Source of the DNA: a virus
Virus record (IMG/VR): IMGVR_UViG_3300021478_000791
Span: 1-25,081 of that record
Reading direction: 5' to 3' (one strand)
Length of the DNA: 25,081 bases
The notes under the pieces were generated by a model, which was not told the DNA's origin, did no database searches, and was given only the letters and a program-made list of their open reading frames with translations. Below, piece by piece: positions 2,902-25,081 of the stretch (positions are counted from its first letter, which is position 1; each line of letters opens with the position of its first letter). The translations under genes were made by a program, and so were the position numbers.

Positions 2902-3840
2902 ATGATTAGCAACAGCATAGAGAGCGCGATGACGGGTTGGGAGCCGGGGATGACGGCGCCTGCGGATGGGAATTCGTCGGGAGATGTGTCGAAGCATGGC
3001 GCGAGTCTAGGGGCGAATTTTGAGTTGTTGGAGGAGTTGCGGCCGGAACTGGTGAATGCGTTGCGCGAGCTGGTACGGCAGTACCGGCAGGAGGGCGTGA
3101 CGGCGCGTCGGCATGAGATTCGGCGGATTCGGCAGGCTCGGCTTTTTTGGCAGGGGTTGCAGTATGCGTGGTGGAATCCGAATGACATGAATTGGCATTT
3201 GCCGTTTGAGCAGAAGTTCAATGATGACCGGGCGCTGGAGGAGATGCCGCGCTACCAGTTTGTAACGAATTTTTATCAGGGATTCGGGCTTTCGTTTGTG
3301 GCGGTGCTTTCGCAGGATGTGCCGAGCGTTAGGTTTTATCCGCAGTCGGCGCAATCGCTGGTGGATATTGCGGCGGCGAAGGCGGCGAGCGACGTGGCGG
3401 AACTGGTGGAGCGGAATAATCATGTGGAGCATCTGCTGACTTCGATTGGGTATTTTTTGTGGACGGATGGGAAGCTGGGCGCGTATGTGCGGTATGTGGC
3501 GGATGGGCAGCGGTTTGGGTTTCGTGAGCAGGAGATCGTGGCGGGGGTGGAGATTTCGCTGGGGGAGGATGTTTGGAAGTGCTCGAGTTGCGGATTGGAG
3601 AGCCCGGTTGAAAGCGATCAGATAGCAGATAACAGCGATCAGGAAACTGGAAATGACGGTGAGTCCTTGCCTGGGTCCCTCCGCTCCGGCCAGCAAACGG
3701 CGCTGGCCTCCGGTCGGGATGACAGTTATGGAGATGGGCGCATCAGCAGAGATGAGGTCCTTCGGGGCGCAAACGGCGCGCCCCTCAGGATGACAAATTT
3801 TGGGAACGCGGGCCGGCCCTTCGTGACTCAGGGTAAATAA
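2902..3840 (+). CDS. Portal protein, N-terminal part (split by a stop in a repeat cassette)
   Basis: These 312 residues are the first part of the dodecameric portal through which DNA enters and leaves the capsid. Features include a charged helical region (ELRPELVNALRELVRQYRQE), an aromatic stretch (LFWQGLQYAWWN) and RYQFVTNFYQGFGLSF. The first half of a zinc ribbon, CSSCG (C227, C230), follows. From about residue 237 the sequence is translated repeat DNA, ending at TAA 3838-3840. The second half continues in the same frame at 3841, so a single stop codon splits the gene. ATG 2902 follows GGAGAAGAA of an R1 repeat. The portal call rests on position and overall character, with P22-type podovirus portals as the likely relatives. 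Confidence 0.8.
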   Translation: MISNSIESAMTGWEPGMTAPADGNSSGDVSKHGASLGANFELLEELRPELVNALRELVRQYRQEGVTARRHEIRRIRQARLFWQGLQYAWWNPNDMNWHLPFEQKFNDDRALEEMPRYQFVTNFYQGFGLSFVAVLSQDVPSVRFYPQSAQSLVDIAAAKAASDVAELVERNNHVEHLLTSIGYFLWTDGKLGAYVRYVADGQRFGFREQEIVAGVEISLGEDVWKCSSCGLESPVESDQIADNSDQETGNDGESLPGSLRSGQQTALASGRDDSYGDGRISRDEVLRGANGAPLRMTNFGNAGRPFVTQGK

Positions 3841-3858
3841 GAAGCCGGCGCTACTGGG
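3608..3858 (+). repeat. Repeat cassette (R3, R4, R4, half R5) inside the portal gene
   Basis: About 250 nt of repeats stand one after another: R3 at 3614-3645, an R4 hairpin at 3674-3725 ending GTCGGGATGACAG, a second R4 at 3755-3796 ending CTCAGGATGACA, and the right half of an R5 element at 3841-3858 (GAAGCCGGCGCTACTGGG). They lie exactly between the two cysteine pairs of the portal zinc ribbon. Only one stop, TAA at 3838, falls in the frame. Confidence 0.85.
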
Positions 3859-5454
3859 GTGTGTCCGGGATGCGGGGCGGAACTTGGGCAGGAGGATTTG
3901 CGGAAGGCGGAACGGGTGACGGTGCCGCGGGTGGTGGAGACGCGGCGGGTGGCGAATGGGCAGGAGGTGATTTCGATTGCGGGCGGGCTGGAATTGAATA
4001 CGCCGGTGTGGGCGAATGAGATGCATGAGTTTCCGTATTTGCAGTGGCAGACGGAAGTGCATCGCGCGAAGTTGAAGGCGGCGTATCCGCAAGCGGCGAA
4101 CAAGATTGAGACGACGCCTTCGCAGGGCGCGGAGGATGTGTACGCGCGCGTTTCACGGATCAGCGTGGAGCAGGGGCTGCCGTCGATTCATCCCGGCGAT
4201 GCGCTGATGAATCTGATTACGTTTGACCGGACGTGGCTGCGGCCATGGGCGTTTTATTCAGTGGAAGACCAAGATGTGCGGCGGGAGTTGCTGGCGCTGT
4301 TTCCGGATGGATGCTACGTGGCGTTTGCCGGCGACGCATATTGCGAAGCGCGGAATGAAAGCATGGACGATCACTGGCGAGTGCTGCATGCCTTGCCGGG
4401 AGACGGGCAGAACCGTCCGAGCGTGGGCGACTCGCTGGTACAAGTGCAGGAGCGGTACAACGTGCTGAGCAATATGCAGGCGGAGACGTATGAGTATGGG
4501 ATTCCGCCGATTTATGCGGATCCGCAGGTTTTGGATTTTGACGCGTTGGCGAATCAGGTGGCGGAGCCGGCGGCACATTTTCCGGCGCGGGCGCGGCCGG
4601 GGCAGCCATTGGCCGCGGGATTTTTTCAACCGGCGCCGGCGCAGATGCCTCCGGACATGATTCGTCATCAGCAGGATTTGATCGGGCCGGTGGCGCAATT
4701 TTTGACTGGACTGTTTCCCGCGGTCTTTGGAGGAAACATGGAGGACGTGAAGACGGCGAGCGGGTATGCGTTGGCGCGTGACCAGGCGCTGGGACGGCTG
4801 GGATTGGTGTGGCGGCGGCTGAAGCAGTTTTATGGCGAGGTGATGCTGCTCGGTGTGGAATCGTTTCGGAAGAACCGGCCGGAGGATGTGGACGTGCCGC
4901 TGTTGGGTCCGGACGGGATGCTGGACGCGCGGATGATTCGCGTGGCGGATTTGAAGGGGAACATTGCTGTGCATCCGGAGGCGGATGAGACGTTCCCGCG
5001 CTTGAAGTCGCAGCAGCGCGGGGTGTTGCAGCAGTTGTTTGGGTTGAAGGATCCGTTGATTCAGGAGGCGATGGCCGATCCGGCGAATATCGGGTACATC
5101 AAGAATGTGCTGGGGCTGACGGAGTTGGTGGTGCCGGGCGAAGATTCGAGGAATAAGCAGTTGCGGGAGATACAGGCGTTGCTGGGAGCGGCGCCGATCG
5201 TGGTGCAGGTGCCTGCTGCAGGCAATCAGATAACAGCGAGCAGCGATCAGGAGGCTGGCGGCGCGCACACCGTTGTGCTGCCATCGGTGGCGGTGGATTT
5301 GTTGCTGGACAACCACGCTGTGGAGTTTGAGGAGTGCAAGCGGTGGGCGAATGCGGAGGCCGGGCAGAGCGCGCGGATGACGAATCCGGCGGGATTTGCG
5401 AATGTTCGGGCACATGCGGAGGCGCACTTGCGGGCGATGGGGACGGCGAAGTGA
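3859..5454 (+). CDS. Portal protein, C-terminal part
   Basis: These 531 residues continue the portal in the same frame as 2902-3840. A possible GTG start at 3859 precedes CPGCGAE, the second zinc-ribbon knuckle; upstream there is only a weak AAGAAG. Typical portal stretches follow: DRTWLRPWAFY, the segment LVQVQERYNVLSNMQAETYE, and GGNMEDVKTASGYALARDQA, the helix-rich part expected near the portal stem and clip. Residues about 456-465 (NQITASSDQE) are an R3 repeat read in frame. If the stop at 3838 is real, the portal is either two polypeptides, rescued by readthrough, or dead. If it is an assembly error, one protein of about 850 residues results. Stop at 5452-5454. Confidence 0.8.
   Translation: MCPGCGAELGQEDLRKAERVTVPRVVETRRVANGQEVISIAGGLELNTPVWANEMHEFPYLQWQTEVHRAKLKAAYPQAANKIETTPSQGAEDVYARVSRISVEQGLPSIHPGDALMNLITFDRTWLRPWAFYSVEDQDVRRELLALFPDGCYVAFAGDAYCEARNESMDDHWRVLHALPGDGQNRPSVGDSLVQVQERYNVLSNMQAETYEYGIPPIYADPQVLDFDALANQVAEPAAHFPARARPGQPLAAGFFQPAPAQMPPDMIRHQQDLIGPVAQFLTGLFPAVFGGNMEDVKTASGYALARDQALGRLGLVWRRLKQFYGEVMLLGVESFRKNRPEDVDVPLLGPDGMLDARMIRVADLKGNIAVHPEADETFPRLKSQQRGVLQQLFGLKDPLIQEAMADPANIGYIKNVLGLTELVVPGEDSRNKQLREIQALLGAAPIVVQVPAAGNQITASSDQEAGGAHTVVLPSVAVDLLLDNHAVEFEECKRWANAEAGQSARMTNPAGFANVRAHAEAHLRAMGTAK
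5220..5256 (+). repeat. R3 repeat in frame inside the portal gene
   Basis: AATCAGATAACAGCGAGCAG is followed by CGATCAGGAGGCTGG and matches the R3 copies at 3614, 6882 and 23290. It is read as NQITASSDQEAGG, a polar linker-like peptide. Confidence 0.75.
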
Positions 5455-5540: not shown

Positions 5541-6872
5541 ATGAGAGGGAATGAGTCGTTGATGATTCAGGATGCTGGTGGAAATGCGGTGCCGGAGATT
5601 TTTGCGCTGACTGATGAGCAGATTTTAGGGATGGAGGCAGAGGGACAGGAAGCCGAGAATGGATCGACGAGTCAGGCGCAGATTAATGATCGAGGTGATG
5701 CCGCGAAAGGCCTCACCCCTGAAGGGGTGAGCTACAGGGATGGGGCGAGTGGTAGGGATGGGAAAAGCGCACAGCCAGGAATGGCTGTGCCACGAGAGTC
5801 GGCACAGGAGCCGCCGGGGTGGTTGGCGCGGGAAATGAAGGATCCGTGGGTGGGGGAAGAGGCGCGGGAGTTTTGGGAGGGCGTGCAGAGGGCGCAGCGG
5901 GAGGCGGCGGCTTATCGGGAGGCGTTTGCTACGCCCGAGGATGCGCGGGCGTTGAAGGAAATTTATCCGGGCGGAGTGGCGGAGGCGAAGAGCGCGGCGC
6001 AACGGGCTCGGGAGCTCGCGGAGATTGATGCGGTGTTTTTTGGGGCGCCTGGAAAACCGGCGGAGGAGTTGCGCGCTGGGCGAATTCAGTTGGTGGAGAA
6101 GTTGCATGCGCAGGATCCGGCGGCGTTTCGAGAGATGGTGGAGGCGGGGAATAAGATTTTGGGGGGAGTCCCCAGTGGCCAGCTGGCGGTAGCCAGTGAA
6201 GTAGGAACCGCACTAGCGAACGACGCGACGAATGTTCGTGGCGTTGGTGGGCGAACTGATCGAGAGGTACAAGTAGGAGTGCCTGTGCCAGAAGAGGTCG
6301 CGAGGCGATACCGGGAGTTTGAACGGGCGACGAATGCGGAGTTGGAGAAGAGCGTGGGCGGGACGATTGCCCGGGCGATGGAGGCGGCGTTGCCGAATTT
6401 GCGGAACGCCCACGGATCCGGTGGGGAGGGGCAAGCCCCTCCCCTACAAGAGAGGTTGCGCAGGGTAGTAAGAGAAGAGGTGGAGACGGCGTTGCGGAGC
6501 GACGCGTCGCTGGGCGAGCAGGTGGCGCGAATTTTGGGTGGGCGGCGATTTGATGAGGCGGCGCGCACGCAGGTGGTGCGGTTGATTGATGCTCGGGCGC
6601 AGCAGTTGGTGCCGGGGGCGGTGCGGAGGGTGGTGGGATCGTGGACGCAGGCTACGTTGGGAACGGGCAAGACGGAAGCTGTGGCGGAAAGTGCTGGGCG
6701 CGGGGCGGAGGGGCGGAGAGTGGAACGGACATCGAGCTCCTCGCGGACGGCAGGTGCAGAGCAGACGGCGAATCGGAATGAGAATTCTTCGGCCAACGCT
6801 GTCGGCCGCAGTGTGTCGCGCGGGCGCGTGGATTACCGGAAGTTGAGTGATGAGCAGATTTTGGGGATGTGA
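5541..6872 (+). CDS. Scaffold-like capsid assembly protein
   Basis: A 443-residue hydrophilic, Glu/Ala/Arg-rich, mainly helical protein lies between portal and coat, the usual place of a scaffold. Helical parts include WLAREMKDPWVGEEAREFWE and REAAAYREAFATPEDARALK. The motif L(T/S)DEQILGM occurs at residues 23-31 and again as the last nine residues. Three stretches are translated R5 hairpins (GLTPEGVSYR, AQPGMAVPR, GEGQAPPLQE), and residues around 210-240 may be another foreign stretch. ATG 5541 is chosen because GGAG lies 9 nt upstream; GTG 5526 and ATG 5562 are alternatives. The scaffold role is inferred from position and composition, not from a recognised domain. Confidence 0.65.
   Translation: MRGNESLMIQDAGGNAVPEIFALTDEQILGMEAEGQEAENGSTSQAQINDRGDAAKGLTPEGVSYRDGASGRDGKSAQPGMAVPRESAQEPPGWLAREMKDPWVGEEAREFWEGVQRAQREAAAYREAFATPEDARALKEIYPGGVAEAKSAAQRARELAEIDAVFFGAPGKPAEELRAGRIQLVEKLHAQDPAAFREMVEAGNKILGGVPSGQLAVASEVGTALANDATNVRGVGGRTDREVQVGVPVPEEVARRYREFERATNAELEKSVGGTIARAMEAALPNLRNAHGSGGEGQAPPLQERLRRVVREEVETALRSDASLGEQVARILGGRRFDEAARTQVVRLIDARAQQLVPGAVRRVVGSWTQATLGTGKTEAVAESAGRGAEGRRVERTSSSSRTAGAEQTANRNENSSANAVGRSVSRGRVDYRKLSDEQILGM
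5709..5740 (-). repeat. R5 REP-like hairpin in frame
   Basis: CTCACCCC and GGGGTGAG (5712-5719 and 5724-5731) pair perfectly around TGAA and are followed by CTACAGGG. On the minus strand this is GTAG plus hairpin with a TTCA loop, the REP layout. It is read as LTPEGVSYR in the scaffold-like protein. Confidence 0.8.
5767..5795 (-). repeat. R5 REP-like hairpin in frame (GTGG type)
   Basis: GCACAGCCA (5769-5777) and TGGCTGTGC (5782-5790) form a perfect 9-bp stem with a GGAA loop, followed by CAC. The minus-strand foot is GTGG. It is the same element as the intergenic copy at 235-266. Confidence 0.8.
6420..6449 (-). repeat. R5 REP-like hairpin in frame
   Basis: GGGGAGGGGC and GCCCCTCCCC (6423-6432, 6435-6444) form a perfect 10-bp stem with an AA loop, followed by TAC. 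The minus-strand foot GTAG runs into the stem. It is read as GGEGQAPPLQ. Confidence 0.75.
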
Positions 6873-7095: not shown

Positions 7096-8352
7096 ATGCC
7101 AGCACAAGCGAACGCGAATGTCATCGCGTTGCAGCTCGAGAAGGTGCGCGACAAAGTGCCCCTGCTCTATGAGCGCGACGACATTCTATTGACGATGATC
7201 CAGCAGCGGGGTGACATCGAGAAGGTATCCAGCCGCAACATGCGGCTGCCGCTGCAGGTGAATCCCGGAGGCAAAGCCGGCTCGTACAACGCGGACGGCG
7301 GGGACCTGGGGCGCGGTTCGGGAACGGCGTACGACGTGGCGCAGGTTTCGCCGATTTTCTTCCGGTTCGCGATTGAAATCACGAAGCTGGTGGAATATGC
7401 GACGACCGGGCGGGAACGGGCTGTTGAAAATGCGGCGAAGAGGGAAGTGGCGAACGGGATGAAGCAGTTCCGGGCGTTCCTGGACAAGCTGATCCAGACG
7501 GCAGGGAACGGCGTGCTGGGAACGATCAGTTCGTTTGCGAGCACGACGTGGACGATGGCAACACCTCCCGGTGCGGCGCTGGTGTACGTAGGACAAACGC
7601 TGCAGGTGTACGACTCGACGCTGACGACGAACCGCGGCACGTGCAACGTGGTGGCGGCGGATCCGATCAGCCCGACGCAGACGATCACCGTGGACACAAA
7701 TCCCGGCGGATTGACGAACGGCGACGTGATTGTGCATGACGGATTGAGCGGCGCGCAGCCGACTTCGCTGTTTGGCATCAAGTATCACCAGAACAACGCG
7801 ACGACGGGAACGTGGCTAAACCTGAACCGCGCGACGTATCCGGTGCAGCTGCAGACGCCTCGCGTGAACGCGGGGAATGCGGCGCTGACGCCGGCGAACG
7901 TGCGGCTGGCGATTAACAAGGTGAGGAAGGCGCTGGGTATCAATCACCTGAGCAAACTGATCGCGTACATGGCCGTGGAGCAGGAGCATGCGTGGGAAAA
8001 CCTGGGCATCACGGTGAGCCAGATCATCAAGGAAGGCGGCAGCGGCGGCGGGAATGATTTGGACCTGCTGTTCACGGGACGGAAAACGATGAGCGGGATT
8101 CCGATCAAGTCCAGCGTGAACGCGGATCAGACGCGCGTGGACTTCCTGGATTTGTCGCACTGGGGAAGGGCCGTGTTGAAGGACATTGATTTTTACGAAG
8201 TCAATGGGAACACGGTGTTTCCGATTTACGGGGCGAGCGGCGGTTTGGCGGCATCGTACATCTTTTATTTTGATACAGCGTTTCAGGTGTGGAGCGATTC
8301 GCCGCGCAGCGGTGCGTACATTGACACCTTGGCAAGGCCGAGCGGGTACTGA
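7096..8352 (+). CDS. Major capsid protein, probably HK97 fold
   Basis: A 418-residue protein expected to form the icosahedral shell. It has an N-terminal helical stretch (NANVIALQLEKVRDKVPLLY), then RNMRLPLQVNPGGKAGSYNA and a long helix region (RAVENAAKREVANGMKQFRA). A beta-rich middle (YVGQTLQVYDSTLTTNRGTC) and a C-terminal domain with RVDFLDLSHWGRAVLKDIDF follow. It has the best ribosome binding site in the window, AAGGAG at 7079-7084, 11 nt from ATG. Codon use favours C-ending codons far more than neighbouring genes, as expected for the most abundant virion protein. Position after the scaffold-like gene supports the call. Fold membership is inferred. Confidence 0.85.
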   Translation: MPAQANANVIALQLEKVRDKVPLLYERDDILLTMIQQRGDIEKVSSRNMRLPLQVNPGGKAGSYNADGGDLGRGSGTAYDVAQVSPIFFRFAIEITKLVEYATTGRERAVENAAKREVANGMKQFRAFLDKLIQTAGNGVLGTISSFASTTWTMATPPGAALVYVGQTLQVYDSTLTTNRGTCNVVAADPISPTQTITVDTNPGGLTNGDVIVHDGLSGAQPTSLFGIKYHQNNATTGTWLNLNRATYPVQLQTPRVNAGNAALTPANVRLAINKVRKALGINHLSKLIAYMAVEQEHAWENLGITVSQIIKEGGSGGGNDLDLLFTGRKTMSGIPIKSSVNADQTRVDFLDLSHWGRAVLKDIDFYEVNGNTVFPIYGASGGLAASYIFYFDTAFQVWSDSPRSGAYIDTLARPSGY

Positions 8353-16118: not shown

Positions 16119-16161
16119 GAGATCCTTCGCGCATCCTCATCGGATGCGCTCAGGATGACAG
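16119..16161 (+). repeat. R4 repeat
   Basis: GATCCTTCGCGCATCC is followed, after a short loop, by GGATGCGCTCAGGATGACA. The GCGCATCC/GGATGCGC arms are perfect. It is part of a roughly 300-nt gap (15991-16289) filled almost wholly by repeats. Confidence 0.8.
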
Positions 16162-16289: not shown

Positions 16290-19238
16290 ATGACGACGAT
16301 TGGATCATTGGATGCGCCGATTGAGATTTTTGGCGGGTTGGTGAGCGACATGGCACCGGCGGATCTGCCGCACGGGGTGTCGCCGGATTGCCAGGACGTG
16401 CTGTTCAGCAGCGGCGGCGTGGCTACGCGGCCGGGGTTACAGGCATTGTTCGGACCGCTGGCGGGGAATCCGACGGTGAATTATGTGAGGAGCTACATCA
16501 CGCCGAACGGAACACTGCGGACGTTGGCGCAGGACGCGAATGGGAATTTGTATAAGGAGACGACGCCGGGAACGCTGACACAGATTGCGAGTGGGCTGAC
16601 GCCGAATTCTTTTGCGAATTCGACGACGCTTTTTGGCAGGGAATATCTGGCGACGAGCGATGGAATGACCGGGAACGACTTGCCGCGGCAGTATGACGAC
16701 ACGAATCTGGATCGCGTGAGCCAGGGCGGGCCGGGAGCGGGCCCGACGGTGGTGGACGAAAATGCGATCGTCGGGATCGCGGCGAGTCCAAGCGGGGCGA
16801 CGCAGCCGGCGGCGGTTGGAATTGTGGCTAGCCCGAGCGGTGCGAGCGAGAACGGCTTCCTTGTGACGATTACGACGAGCGCCGCGCATGGATTGAGTGC
16901 GGGGCAGACGGTGACGGTCGCCGGCGTGGGCGTGAGCGGGTACAACGGAACATATCCTGTGGTGAGCGTGCTGAGCACGACGCAGTTTACGTATATCGCG
17001 GGGGCAACCGGACTGGCAAATTCGGGCGGAGGCACGGCCGCTTCGGCGACGGTGACGATTCAGACGTCCGCGGCGCACGGATTGACAGCCGGTCAGTTGG
17101 TGACGATTACCGGAGTTGGCGTTGGCGGGTACAACGGAACGTTCAGCGCGGCGAGCGTGATTGACGCAACGCATTTTACATACTTCGGGGCGAATGGCGG
17201 GCTGGTGGCTTCCGGCGGCGGCACGGCGGCCGCGGCGGGTAACGTCGGCCAGGGAGTGCACCAGTGCTGCGTGATTTTTCAGACGCGTCAGGGATATTTG
17301 ACAGCGCCTGGACCGGCGACGAGCTGGACGGCAAGCGGCGGGAAGCGTGCAGTCGTGACGAACATTCCGACCGGCCCCTCGAACGTGGTGGCGCGGATTT
17401 TGTGTTTCACGGGCGCGGGAGGGGCAAGCTTTTTTTACGTGGGCGGAGGCGGGACGCTCTTCGGCGGAAACATGATTGTCGGCGACAACACGACTACGTC
17501 GCTGGTGGTGGATTTCTCAGACGCGATTCTGCTGGTGAGCACGAATGTGGACAACCAGTTTCGCTTGATCGAACTGGGCGACTGCGCTGGCGTGATTGAC
17601 TATGCGGAGCGGCTCTTCTGGTGGGGCGAACGCAACAAAATGAACAACTGGACGAACCTGGGATTTGACGGCGGGTTCACGGGGCCGTCGTTGCCTCATT
17701 ATCCCCTGGGCTGGACGGCAGACCCGACGTTTGCACCGGGCGGAACGGATGAGGAGAGTTTCGTGGTGTGGGGCGCGGCGTATTCGATTGTGGGGAACGG
17801 AACGACGGCGACGCGTGGCTTGATGACGCAAAGCGCGGTGAAGGATGCGCTGGGCGCGCAGCGGATTCAGGCGGGGACGGATTACACGGTGCGGGCGCGG
17901 TGCGCGCGCAATTCGACGCTGGTGCAGGGGACGCTGCACGTGCATTTGTTCAGCGCGAGCGGCGGGATCAACACGACTGGTTTGCAGCTCACCGCGGCGC
18001 AATTGACCACGAATTATGTGGAATACAGCGCGCAGCTGACGGCGCCGCTTATGACAATCCCGAGTGACTTGGTGCTGCGGATTTACGCGGATGGGACGCC
18101 AAACTCGAACGGACAGTTCTATGTGGATGCGATCGAGATTTATCCGACGGCGCAACCGGTGAATTCTTCCCTGGTGCGGGCGAGCCGCGTGGAAGATCCG
18201 GAGAGCTACGACGGGATCGATGGGATGCTCCGCGTGGCGGAGAACAACGGGCAGGCGATTCGCGCGGCGTTCAAACTGCGCGAACGGCTGTACTTTGTGA
18301 AAGAACATTCGCTGCACGTGACACAGGATGACGGAACGAACGAGCCGTCGTTATGGTCCATTTCGGAGGTTTCACGGCGCGTAGGAACGCCATCGGTGCC
18401 CGGGGTGGGATTTGGCGAGGACTGGGTGGTGATTGCCCACCGAACGGGTTTGTATCTTTTTTCGGGCGGCGAGCCGGTGAAGATTTCTCAGGAGATCCAG
18501 CCGACGTGGAATCAGATCAACTGGCAGTATGCGCAGACGCTTTGGGTGACGGTGGACACGCGGGAGCGGCGGATTTACGTGGGCGCGCCGTTTGAGAGCG
18601 CAACTACTCCGAATCGCGTGCTGATGCTGGATTATCACGACCTGGACTCGGCGTCGGATATTGAGGGGCGGCCGCCGGTGAATATTACGTACACGGGGCG
18701 GAAGACCGCGACGGACAATTCTCGAAAGTGGGCGCCGTGGTCGGTGGCGGCGAATTGCTGCGCGCTGATTGAACGGACGAATGGGACCGCGCTGGCGGCG
18801 TTTGGCGGGGGATCGCCGGGAGTTGGCGGTGGTGGAGCGACGGGGAAGATCTATCAGTTGAACGATACGCAGTTTTCGGACGATGGCGCAGCGATTCCGA
18901 GTTACTACACGACGCACTTTTTCCCGGAGCGGGCGGTGGAAAGTTCACTCGGATTGGGTGCGCACCGGAAACTATTCAGCTATCTGACGATGTATGTCGA
19001 GGGCGCGGGAAACCTGGCGCTGACGAGTTTTGTGGATTCGGAGAGCGCGGCGACGGCGCAGCAGCCGCTGGGGATGAGTTCGCCAGGGCTGAAGGATTTG
19101 GAATTGCCGATCAATGTGTTGGGTGAGCGGGTGGCGTTTCAGGTGGGGACGAATCAGGCGGGGGCCTGGTTTAAGGTGCAGAGGTTTGCGCCATCGGTGA
19201 GAGTGGATCCGTGGGCGCCGGTGCGGGGAGTGAATTGA
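16290..19238 (+). CDS. Large tail protein with tandem AHGL modules
   Basis: A 982-residue protein beginning MTTIGSLDAPIEIFGGLVSD. The N-terminal part (SPDCQDVLFSSGGVATRPGL, YVRSYITPNGTLRTLAQDAN) and the repeated WGERNKMNNW/GLYLFSGGEP-type strands suggest a beta-propeller-like tail stem or nozzle, as in podovirus tail proteins. Two tandem 63-residue modules (TSAAHGLSAGQTVTVAGVGV and its copy) lie at about 192-317. A beta-sandwich resembling a carbohydrate-binding module spans about 480-625 (DYTVRARCARNSTLVQG to FYVDAIEIYP). An upstream start at 16155 is rejected because those 45 residues are translated R6 and R5 repeats. The binding site at 16290 is weak. The tail role is inferred from size, pattern and position. 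Confidence 0.75.
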   Translation: MTTIGSLDAPIEIFGGLVSDMAPADLPHGVSPDCQDVLFSSGGVATRPGLQALFGPLAGNPTVNYVRSYITPNGTLRTLAQDANGNLYKETTPGTLTQIASGLTPNSFANSTTLFGREYLATSDGMTGNDLPRQYDDTNLDRVSQGGPGAGPTVVDENAIVGIAASPSGATQPAAVGIVASPSGASENGFLVTITTSAAHGLSAGQTVTVAGVGVSGYNGTYPVVSVLSTTQFTYIAGATGLANSGGGTAASATVTIQTSAAHGLTAGQLVTITGVGVGGYNGTFSAASVIDATHFTYFGANGGLVASGGGTAAAAGNVGQGVHQCCVIFQTRQGYLTAPGPATSWTASGGKRAVVTNIPTGPSNVVARILCFTGAGGASFFYVGGGGTLFGGNMIVGDNTTTSLVVDFSDAILLVSTNVDNQFRLIELGDCAGVIDYAERLFWWGERNKMNNWTNLGFDGGFTGPSLPHYPLGWTADPTFAPGGTDEESFVVWGAAYSIVGNGTTATRGLMTQSAVKDALGAQRIQAGTDYTVRARCARNSTLVQGTLHVHLFSASGGINTTGLQLTAAQLTTNYVEYSAQLTAPLMTIPSDLVLRIYADGTPNSNGQFYVDAIEIYPTAQPVNSSLVRASRVEDPESYDGIDGMLRVAENNGQAIRAAFKLRERLYFVKEHSLHVTQDDGTNEPSLWSISEVSRRVGTPSVPGVGFGEDWVVIAHRTGLYLFSGGEPVKISQEIQPTWNQINWQYAQTLWVTVDTRERRIYVGAPFESATTPNRVLMLDYHDLDSASDIEGRPPVNITYTGRKTATDNSRKWAPWSVAANCCALIERTNGTALAAFGGGSPGVGGGGATGKIYQLNDTQFSDDGAAIPSYYTTHFFPERAVESSLGLGAHRKLFSYLTMYVEGAGNLALTSFVDSESAATAQQPLGMSSPGLKDLELPINVLGERVAFQVGTNQAGAWFKVQRFAPSVRVDPWAPVRGVN
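16863..17240 (+). repeat. Tandem 63-residue modules inside the tail gene
   Basis: Two adjacent 189-nt units (16863-17051 and 17052-17240) each encode VTI(T/Q)TSAAHGL, then YNGT and FTY, ending in a GGGTA linker. Similar motifs occur in the fibre gene (TSAAHNMP, YNGTFTISNF), which points to a shared beta-sandwich module. Confidence 0.8.
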
Positions 19239-20610: not shown

Positions 20611-21048
20611 ATGAAGATCCGAGTGTATGAGGAAAGCGATTTGGACGAGCTGCGGGCGATTCATGCGCGGCAGGGATTTGGATATGCGTTTCCGGATTTG
20701 AAGAATCCGCTGTTTCTGACGAAGCTTGTTTTGGGAAGGGAAGAGGGCGGGAAGGGAATTGCCGGCGCTGCCCTGCTGCGGTTGACGGCGGAGGCGTATC
20801 TGCTGCTGAATCCGGAGGCCGGTTCGCCGCGGGAGAAATGGCAGTGGCTGCTGGGATTGCACGAAGCGACGCGGCGCGATGCGCTGGCTCGAGGATTGGA
20901 AGATGTGCACGCGTGGCTGCCACCGGAAATCGCGCAGAAATTCGGCAAGCGGCTGACGAGATTGGGTTGGGTTCGGGATGACAAGTGGACGCCGTACTGC
21001 AAGCGTCTTGAGCCAACATTTGCTGTCGTCAACGGGAAGAAAACATGA
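20611..21048 (+). CDS. GNAT-family acetyltransferase-like protein
   Basis: A 145-residue protein with the shape of a small N-acetyltransferase: MKIRVYEESDLDELRAIH as strand 1 and helix 1, GFGYAFPDL, then GIAGAALLRLTAEAYLLL as the central strands, a helix (GLHEATRRDALARGLEDVHA) and FGKRLTRLGWVRDD near the end. The acetyl-CoA loop is not a clear R/QxxGxG/A, so activity is uncertain. It overlaps the next ORF by 4 nt, which suggests translational coupling. A substrate cannot be named; an odd presence among structural genes. Confidence 0.75.
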   Translation: MKIRVYEESDLDELRAIHARQGFGYAFPDLKNPLFLTKLVLGREEGGKGIAGAALLRLTAEAYLLLNPEAGSPREKWQWLLGLHEATRRDALARGLEDVHAWLPPEIAQKFGKRLTRLGWVRDDKWTPYCKRLEPTFAVVNGKKT

Positions 21049-21709
21049 AATCACTGGGCGATCTTTTCAAGAGAGCTCTCGACCACCACGCAGACCGCGA
21101 GTCGGCGGAAGACCATGTTCATGGAAGAGACGAAGAATCTCCGTATCTGTTGTTGGGGCAAAAGACGGGGTCGCTCGAAAAAGGCGCTGCTCCACCGACA
21201 CGGAAGGAGGTTCTTAACTACTTGGGAGAGTTAGCAAAGGATTATCACCTTCCTCCGAAGTTAGTGTATGCTGTGGCTGATGCGGAGAGCGGCGTCAACC
21301 CCGAGGCACCCACGCGAACTACTTAAGAAGGCACGGAAAGATCGTCCACGACAAACATGGAAGCCCAATCATCAAAAACTGGGATTATGGAATGATGCAG
21401 GTCAACAGCTCGGATATCAACAAGGGCGAAGTGAAGGACTCCCGCAAGCATCCTTTCAAAATTGGTGAGGATGTTAAGACAGATTGGAAGGCAAACGCTC
21501 GTGCGGGGGTTGCTTTATTGGCTCCGGCCTACCGACTCGCGGAAATGGAACAGGGACCGGGTGCGACAGCTGAGGACCATGCACAGCAAGCCTATTCCCA
21601 GTACAACGGTACTCCGCAGACCCGCGATCGGTATTTGAAGCAGGGCCGGGACGGGTTGCCACAGAATGACGCAGATCGGAACTTTCTGCAAAAGTATAGA
21701 CACTGGTGA
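21045..21709 (+). pseudogene. Lytic transglycosylase (SLT) gene with a frameshift
   Basis: The first frame (21045 to about 21300) gives a charged N-terminus without signal peptide and HLPPKLVYAVADAESGVNPE, with catalytic Glu81 in the ES motif. It then runs into TAA at 21324-21326. From about 21300 a second frame continues the fold: HANYLRRHGKIVHDKHGSP, then DYGMMQVN and AQQAYSQYNGTPQTRDRYL, ending at TGA 21707. A -1 shift near 21298-21322 would restore one protein of about 220 residues. ES, GMMQV and AYSQYNG are the SLT motifs. The DNA is less G-rich than neighbouring virion genes. It may be truly broken, or the shift may be an assembly error. Confidence 0.75.
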
Positions 21710-22713: not shown

Positions 22714-23277
22714 ATGGGACGGGGAGCACAGGGACAGACACAGAGCTTGACGGACAATCAACTGGGCCAGACGAATGCGCTGAACCAGCAGGTGCTGGGC
22801 CAGCAGCAGTCGGTGGGAAACCTGGTGGTGCCGCAGTTTCAGAGCATTTTGAACAATCCGGGATTCAGTGCGGCGGACAAGGTGGCGATCACCGGGCAAT
22901 CGCAAGGAGCGCTGGCCAGCGCGTTTGATTCGCTGCAGCAGTCGGCGGCGAATCGAGCTGCGCGCACGGGAAATTCGGCGGGCTTCAGCGAGTTGACGGA
23001 TCAACTGGCGCGGCAGAAGGGGATTGCGGAAGGCAACCTGGCGCAGCAGAACCAGTTGAACTTCAGCAACACGGCGTTTCAGCGGCAGATGGCGGCGCTA
23101 CAGGGGCTCTCGGGTTTATTTGGAGTGGATTCCAACCTGTTGGGAAGAACGCTCGGGATTCCCGCGGAGCTGCTGAATGTTCGGGCTAATGCTTCGCGGA
23201 ACAATGGAGGATTTTTCTCGTCGCTGGGATCGAGCCTAGGCGGGGCATTGGGCGGAGTGCCGGGGTTGTTTTTGTAG
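22714..23277 (+). CDS. Internal virion / DNA-ejection-like protein, putative
   Basis: A 187-residue Gln/Asn/Ala-rich protein: QSLTDNQLGQTNALNQQVLG, then ALASAFDSLQQSAANRAART, SELTDQLARQKGIAEGNLAQ and a Gly/Ser/Phe-rich end (FFSSLGSSLGGALGGVPGLF). The Gln-rich amphipathic helices and hydrophobic tail resemble short ejection proteins that line the podovirus core and insert in the cell envelope. GGAGG lies 8-9 nt before ATG. The call rests on composition and position. Confidence 0.6.
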   Translation: MGRGAQGQTQSLTDNQLGQTNALNQQVLGQQQSVGNLVVPQFQSILNNPGFSAADKVAITGQSQGALASAFDSLQQSAANRAARTGNSAGFSELTDQLARQKGIAEGNLAQQNQLNFSNTAFQRQMAALQGLSGLFGVDSNLLGRTLGIPAELLNVRANASRNNGGFFSSLGSSLGGALGGVPGLFL

Positions 23278-23289
23278 GAAGACGAAGAC

Positions 23290-23317
23290 AGCGATCAGCT
23301 AACAGCGATCAGGAAGC
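23290..23317 (+). repeat. R3 repeat
   Basis: AGCGATCAGCTAACAGCGAT followed by CAGGAAGC, 13 nt after the stop of the internal-virion-like gene. Confidence 0.8.
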
Positions 23318-23380
23318 AAGAGTGGCTGCGTCATTCTTGGTTGGTGTTTGTCGCGTGGTTGGCGGTGGGGGTTCAGCCTG

Positions 23381-24460: not shown

Positions 24461-25081
24461 ATGGGAACCTGGATCAAGCTTGGGGCTCTTGTGGTTGTTG
24501 CGGTCCTGGCGGCTAGTCTGTTCGTTGCGTGGCGGGATGAGCGGAAGGAACAGGTGGCGCTGCAGGCGGAGTTGAAGACGACGCAGCAGGCGCTGGCGGA
24601 GGCGACCACGCGGCAGGCAACCCGGGATGCGGCCGTGAACGATTTGGTGGCGGGGTTGAGGAAGAAAGAGGCGGCCATGCAGAAACCGTCGCAGGTGGTG
24701 GCGGCGTTGCCGGATGTGCTGCCCTTGCCGGCCCCGATAACGATCGGTCCAGAGCGCCCCGCCCCAGAAGGCGGGCCCTACACAGGCAAGAGCGCAGCGA
24801 GTGCCGTGGATGGGATTCGGCCGAAGGTGAATTTCCCTGCTGCGGATTTGAAGCCACTGTACGACTTTGCGGCGGACTGCAAGGCTTGTCAGGCGAAATT
24901 GGGGGCGGCTCAGGCCGACCTGGCCGATGAGAAGGTCAAGAGCCAGGCCATCGGCAGGGAACGGGACGATGCCCTGCGAGCAGCGAAGGGCGGCTCGGTC
25001 TTGCGGCGGATTGCGCGAGCGGCGAAGTGGTTTGCGATTGGAGCAGCGGCGGGAGCGATTGCGGCGAAAGCGGCGCGGTAG
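24461..25081 (+). CDS. Spanin-like (Rz-type) membrane protein
   Basis: A 206-residue protein with an N-terminal membrane anchor (residues 5-23, IKLGALVVVAVLAASLFVA) and a long periplasmic coiled-coil stretch (QVALQAELKTTQQALAEATT). A Pro-rich hinge, a second helical region with CKACQAKLGAAQADLADEKV, and a hydrophobic tail (WFAIGAAAGAIAAKAAR) follow. This is the general build of inner-membrane spanins, here longer than usual. Residues about 98-109 (RPAPEGGPYTGK) are an R5 hairpin read in frame. It lies after the transglycosylase, as expected for a lysis group. No ribosome binding site is seen, since R2 ends 9 nt before ATG. The stop is the last codon of the window. Confidence 0.65.
   Translation: MGTWIKLGALVVVAVLAASLFVAWRDERKEQVALQAELKTTQQALAEATTRQATRDAAVNDLVAGLRKKEAAMQKPSQVVAALPDVLPLPAPITIGPERPAPEGGPYTGKSAASAVDGIRPKVNFPAADLKPLYDFAADCKACQAKLGAAQADLADEKVKSQAIGRERDDALRAAKGGSVLRRIARAAKWFAIGAAAGAIAAKAAR
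24753..24788 (-). repeat. R5 REP-like hairpin in frame inside the spanin-like gene
   Basis: CGCCCCGCCCC, AGAA, GGCGGGCCC, then TACACAGG. The stem is imperfect. The minus-strand foot is GTAG. It is read as a Pro/Gly-rich peptide. Confidence 0.7.

Follow-up and report, generated by a model that had tools for sequence, protein, structure and literature searches.

The window, a complete virus record of 25,081 bases (IMGVR_UViG_3300021478_000791), includes a portal gene that is interrupted by a single in-frame TAA, and the interruption lies among dispersed repeats that separate the two halves of a predicted zinc ribbon. The account of this region that we favour, and consider fairly probable as a whole, combines a domesticated cluster, a ribbon loop filled with repeats, a stop codon contributed by an extra repeat unit and a damaged allele. 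In this account, a phage-derived structural cluster made up of terminase, portal, scaffold, capsid and tail genes occupies a fixed chromosomal site in Acidiferrales and would be passed on mainly vertically. In the portal, the zinc ribbon sits between two adjacent strands of the wing region, and the chain between its knuckles, which is predicted to be disordered, could lengthen without harm to the fold. Short dispersed repeats of the host would insert into this loop and into a loop of the terminase, by a route that we infer, and purifying selection would retain the insertions in frame and free of stops. In the window lineage, one more unit carried the TAA and split the gene; this copy has presumably lost its function, and the loop would be disordered in vivo.

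The split portal gene and its zinc ribbon

The portal gene, with its loop and repeats, is on the plus strand, as are the terminase, scaffold-like, capsid and transglycosylase-like genes. Its N-terminal part (positions 2902–3840; 312 aa), recognized from homologues and from the portal fold of an intact relative, includes the start of the clip and wing and the first zinc knuckle, CSSCG, and is ended by the TAA at 3838–3840. The C-terminal part (3859–5454; 531 aa), recognized from homologues, starts around the second knuckle, CPGCG, and its GTG at 3859 is the first start codon past the TAA, 18 nt downstream. The two ORFs are in one frame, as are the knuckles (CSSCG at 3580, CPGCG at 3862), which are approximately 90 codons apart with 270 nt of repeats between them (3592–3861), and the TAA is the only break. 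The preliminary description had proposed two ribbon halves in one frame, separated by repeats and broken by a single TAA, and all of this was confirmed: units of the R3 type found between the knuckles recur in the window, and the segments at 3665–3732 and 3750–3795 match repeats dispersed in an Acidobacteria chromosome.

As neither half of the window gene matched a portal family in Pfam or PHROGs, the fold was used to identify the product. For the intact relative L005, a structure modelled from 53 relatives (mean pLDDT 72.9) resembles podovirus portals over residues 42–716, with Z scores of 24.4 for Pan3, 22.9 for GP4, 21.4 for P22 and 21.0 for SU10 (VIA), and the best Foldseek match was the N4 portal (E 5e-10). 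Sequence identity to these portals is only about 10%, and they differ from the portals studied here in that the latter have a zinc ribbon with a 10–115 aa loop between strands of the wing region. Judged from the model, the product of the split gene is a podovirus-type portal, as had been proposed. Its surroundings fit: the gene adjoins the terminase large subunit gene (287–1918) and precedes a scaffold-like ORF (5544–6872; function inferred) and the major capsid protein gene (7096–8352; phrog_14242), which is 88–96% identical in relatives, and a neighbouring gene matches Pfam SU10_adaptor. A relative with a short loop, L065, gave a P22_portal match (E 0.0035) that was under the cut-off, as were DZR matches in L065 and L070. 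No matches were returned when the read-through portal was used to search PDB sequences, or when the C-terminal half was used as a tblastn query against a phage collection. In a close relative, G009 (L004, L205), the capsid gene is in two frames (residues 1–140 and 139–418) and may be broken or misassembled.

The four ribbon cysteines, C227, C230, C295 and C298 in L005, are conserved in at least 90% of the 53 relatives, which agrees with the proposal that they form a split zinc ribbon with two CxxC knuckles. In the L005 model, the predicted ribbon lies between two long strands (207–219 and 312–325), and the pLDDT of the inter-knuckle chain (239–289) is 33–40. From this low pLDDT the chain is predicted to be disordered, and because of this the loop should be able to lengthen without harming the fold.

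Loop variation and uptake of host repeats

Homologues of the portal were found in about 80 viral contigs and in 17 from Acidobacteria. Ribbon and variable loop, rather than unrelated sequence, are present at this place in about 70 relatives, and the 68 distinct related loops range from 10 to 115 aa. A spacing of 10–20 residues, described earlier as normal, was seen only in distant relatives (10, 13, 15, 16 and 16 aa), whereas the loops of close relatives are 21–115 aa long. In portals with both halves in one open frame, to which the stop tally was confined with the others examined separately, the loops contain no stops in frame 0 (3,911 codons) but 82 in the +1 frame and 177 in the +2 frame; the shuffled mean was approximately 123. 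The dN/dS values were 0.43–0.92 in the loop and 0.02–0.05 in the C-terminal half of the portal. For the portal family, the variable in-frame loops thus bear out the option, raised earlier, that the loop accepts insertions. Programmed bypassing of the loop in the style of T4 gene 60 was set aside because the relatives have an open frame through loops of all lengths.

No other portal among the approximately 70 is split by a stop in the loop, but several are broken by frameshifts. Two of these breaks are in the loop and also fall within repeats, one inside a 7 nt tandem repeat (L029) and one inside a CACAGAGG-type repeat (L146). L023, L024 and L148 have a common frameshift upstream of the loop, while the frameshift in L030 is past the ribbon and that in L150 is further on. 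Since about 70 natural variants of a single loop are available, it is possible to measure directly how far insertions are tolerated, how the frame is selected for and where this occasionally fails. In five further relatives (L014, L015, L016, L026 and L046), the portal ORF extends up to about 250 aa beyond its usual end, toward the next gene.

Three repeat types were found in the window loop. An R3-type repeat made up of AGCGATCAG units (3606–3650) recurs at 23287–23321 and at 5212–5258, where it forms a second variable, repeat-bearing stretch of the portal that is also in frame. It is followed by the R4 hairpin repeat (3665–3732), which ends with CGGGATGACA, and by the R5 hairpin repeat (3750–3795; hairpin z -2.95), which has the form TCCTTCG-stem-CTCAGGATGACA and a second copy in the window at 16123–16160. 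Both R4 and R5 have dispersed copies in host genomes. The loops of the window and of Ca. Acidiferrum typicum (L135) have many dispersed matches in Acidobacteria chromosomes, and when the loops were compared with a sample of 698 kb from three host genomes in which the portal region had been masked, 46 of 69 loops matched dispersed host repeats. Only 6/69 control pieces of equal length from the same genes and none of the 69 shuffles did so. Wholly outside ORFs of at least 200 aa were 73 of the 156 host repeat places, though such ORFs make up 82% of the sample. Within the loops there are 25 forward copies of the repeat end GGATGACA and one reverse copy, none of them in the frame in which it would read TGA. 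As the loops are free of stops in frame 0 and 46/69 match host repeats, we conclude that host repeats are incorporated into the loop in frame, like the palindromic elements of Rickettsia.

The terminase has a repeat loop of its own, also in frame (approximately 1181–1291, with a repeat at 1219–1274). It is hypervariable, with 56 distinct forms of 11–84 aa, 23 of which match host repeats. In these loops, frame 0 has one stop, whereas the other two frames have 70 and 77; the frame 0 stop, in L086, is a TAA created by a one-base difference from the near-identical L087. Further dispersed repeats are found in frame in the scaffold-like ORF (5706–5745 and 5778–5793; LTPEGVSY) and in the last ORF of the window (24758–24792; APEGGPY). 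An ORF for a 1027 aa virion protein includes a 186 nt tandem duplication (16863–17048 and 17052–17237; 71% identity).

In-frame insertion of repeats is best known from Rickettsia and Wolbachia, and here it is seen in essential parts of a phage machine. The palindromic elements of those genera (RPE-4/6/7, WPE; PMC3767692, PMC2229807) are likewise short genomic repeats with hairpins that occur in intergenic stretches as well as in frame within conserved proteins, where they occupy exposed sites, and they frequently contain ATGAC motifs; R4 and R5 end in GGATGACA. The repeat family described here is also dispersed in the host genome, and the frame is kept in conserved proteins (the portal and terminase loops). 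However, the phylum is a different one, the repeats are 20–70 bp rather than about 100–150 bp, a single loop holds a stack of several unrelated families and the insertions are in components of a phage machine. The likeness is one of insertion mode, and ATGAC, the only motif in common, says nothing about descent. REP/BIME and MITE repeats (PMC3733652, PMC2229807) are also short dispersed palindromes with many copies that are mostly intergenic, but the repeats found here are in addition translated inside essential genes in many lineages.

Origin and consequences of the stop codon

The TAA is part of an extra short element, CCCTTCGTGACTCAGGGTAAATAA (3817–3840), that accounts for a net gain of 21 nt relative to the nearest relatives. 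Where L004 and L005 have GGCCGG-CTG-GAAGCC, the window has GGCCGG-CCCTTCGTGACTCAGGGTAAATAA-GAAGCC. The stop-bearing element, CCTTCG-TGA-CTCAGGGT, is absent from these relatives and belongs to a host-like family, CCTTCG-NNN-CTCAGGGT, with two copies in 180 kb of the host genome G002 and none in its shuffle. As L004 and L005 do not have the element and its type is present in G002, the TAA arrived with one more short element, presumably in a single insertion event. The view that a repeat unit supplied the stop is therefore upheld. Nothing notable was found in the RNA fold of the TAA region.

A second contig, IMGVR_UViG_3300050821_011578, shares this TAA; over the 16,131 positions compared, it shows three differences from the window, all of them outside the loop. 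An error in a single contig is therefore unlikely, though the two contigs are possibly from related samples. The L086 and L087 pair indicates that errors or rare alleles do occur in such data, and a sequencing or assembly error could have produced the TAA in the same way. However, in addition to its recurrence in the second contig, the TAA is in a 24 nt stretch that differs as a whole from the relatives and matches a host element type, and we regard an error as quite improbable.

A second gene in the window is also broken. A transglycosylase-like gene (21045–21709; name inferred from sequence) is a single 222 aa ORF in the relatives G012 and G015 but is disrupted by a frameshift in the window; its 3′ piece had no match in Pfam. 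All of the remaining genes in the window look full length, and they are collinear with those of relatives. Because this second gene is broken too, the window copy is most likely an allele that was damaged recently. Of the three fates for this copy put forward in the preliminary description, a dead gene, in the sense of recent damage, is thus favoured over two polypeptides and over readthrough, rather than established. In the C-terminal half of the portal, the changes unique to the window are 22 synonymous and four non-synonymous, and dN/dS past the stop is not raised. As selection past the stop is unrelaxed, either the damage is recent or a second chain is still made, and the second half of the portal may still be translated.

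If the second half is translated, ribosomes could stop at the TAA and restart just downstream, giving two chains that assemble through their common zinc ribbon. The GTG at 3859 is close to the stop, selection in the second half is unrelaxed and the break falls in a loop, where cutting the chain would do little harm. Pairing with the anti-SD upstream of this GTG is weak (-2.9), however, and although pairing upstream of the GTG at 3916 is stronger (-7.8, compared with a mean of -4.8 for internal starts), a start at that position would lose the second knuckle. Restart of translation is thus possible but weakly supported. Together with the uniqueness of this split among about 70 portals and the second broken gene, this leads us to consider a two-chain portal rather unlikely.

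Readthrough of the TAA could also yield the full-length portal, either by itself or together with the short form, since the frame is the same on both sides. In-frame stops with conserved sequence downstream have been reported in bacterial genes as possible readthrough (PMC7918605). However, the terminase gene of the window uses a TAA as its normal stop, and no recoding signal was found. TAA is also the least leaky stop, which counts against readthrough, and we consider this explanation highly improbable. The damaged allele remains the reading that we favour.

A conserved chromosomal location

A match to the portal was found in 47 of 95 genomes of Candidatus Acidiferrales, the order of Ca. Acidiferrum, nearly always as one copy. 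In all nine genomes with both genes on one contig, the portal is 6–11 kb from a gene for a MOSC-domain protein, and the order at this locus in Acidiferrales (Acidobacteriota) is MOSC-GYD-[cluster]-DsbA-NAD synthetase. Host genes are collinear on both flanks in eight genomes, with MOSC and GYD upstream and DsbA, NAD synthetase and more downstream, and DsbA and NAD synthetase are also downstream in the more distant G118. In a more distant group (G150, G098 and others), the same locus was not seen in the flanking stretches covered, and the fixed site is therefore described for the closer genomes. The GYD gene is upstream of the terminase gene in the window's near-identical contig, and the window lineage is therefore placed at the same site.

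Eight genomes that have the same flanks but no portal are 2.2–9.5 kb from MOSC to DsbA, compared with 27–36 kb where the cluster is present. Remnants of the cluster are found in two genomes. In G093, between MOSC and DsbA (L250-L251), the start of the portal (84% identity) runs straight into a homologue of the window gene at 22714–23277, a later gene of the cluster, and this relic looks to have been left by a large internal deletion. Another fragment of the cluster is at the locus in G076.

Comparison of G001 and G157 gave dS values of 0.14–0.65 for cluster genes and 0.19–0.42 for flanking genes, with low dN/dS in both. Distances for cluster and flanking genes are positively correlated (r 0.33–0.92), and since the correlations are moderate in places, some exchange between lineages is possible. 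Because the cluster is at a single conserved place in the chromosome, between the same host genes and normally with one copy per genome, the term prophage used in the preliminary description is not supported as it stood, and a domesticated element with vertical inheritance is the better reading. On the gene content and distances summarized here, it has probably been inherited mainly vertically and lost repeatedly.

A single location could also result if the cluster were an ordinary temperate phage that favours one integration site, and the absence of the cluster from about half of the order, the moderate distance correlations and tail genes that are more variable than the rest of the cluster are in keeping with this. 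However, the ORFs tested, which were a subset and of which many are without any family, yielded neither an integrase nor replication genes. There is no tRNA at the site in G001. The dS values like those of flanking host genes, the relics in G093 and G076 and the single copy per genome also argue against an ordinary phage, which we consider unlikely. The fixed locus instead suggests that the Acidobacteriota, a dominant phylum in soil, harbour a domesticated cluster of phage origin.

In its locus, inheritance and selection, the cluster resembles the gene transfer agents (GTAs) of alphaproteobacteria (RcGTA, CcGTA; PMC6821227, PMC10883770, PMC11841831), which are also structural clusters at a fixed locus, mainly vertically inherited, under purifying selection, often labelled as prophages and lost in some lineages. 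The differences are a podovirus-type portal and an Acidobacteriota host, and the cluster is known from genes rather than particles; as the defining trait of a GTA is the packaging of host DNA, we do not class it as one. No report of GTAs in Acidobacteria was found in the open-access literature, nor do they appear in a paper on viruses of Acidobacteriota. It is conceivable, though very improbable, that Acidiferrales have a vertically inherited podovirus-type GTA, the first in Acidobacteriota as far as we found, with a portal and terminase that evolve by taking up host palindromic repeats in frame, and that the window lineage uses a two-chain portal joined at the zinc ribbon.

In three IMG/VR contigs, G012, G013 and G016, the cluster adjoins the host MOSC gene, and these contigs are probably pieces of chromosome. 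This suggests that some IMG/VR contigs with related clusters are derived from chromosomes rather than from viruses.
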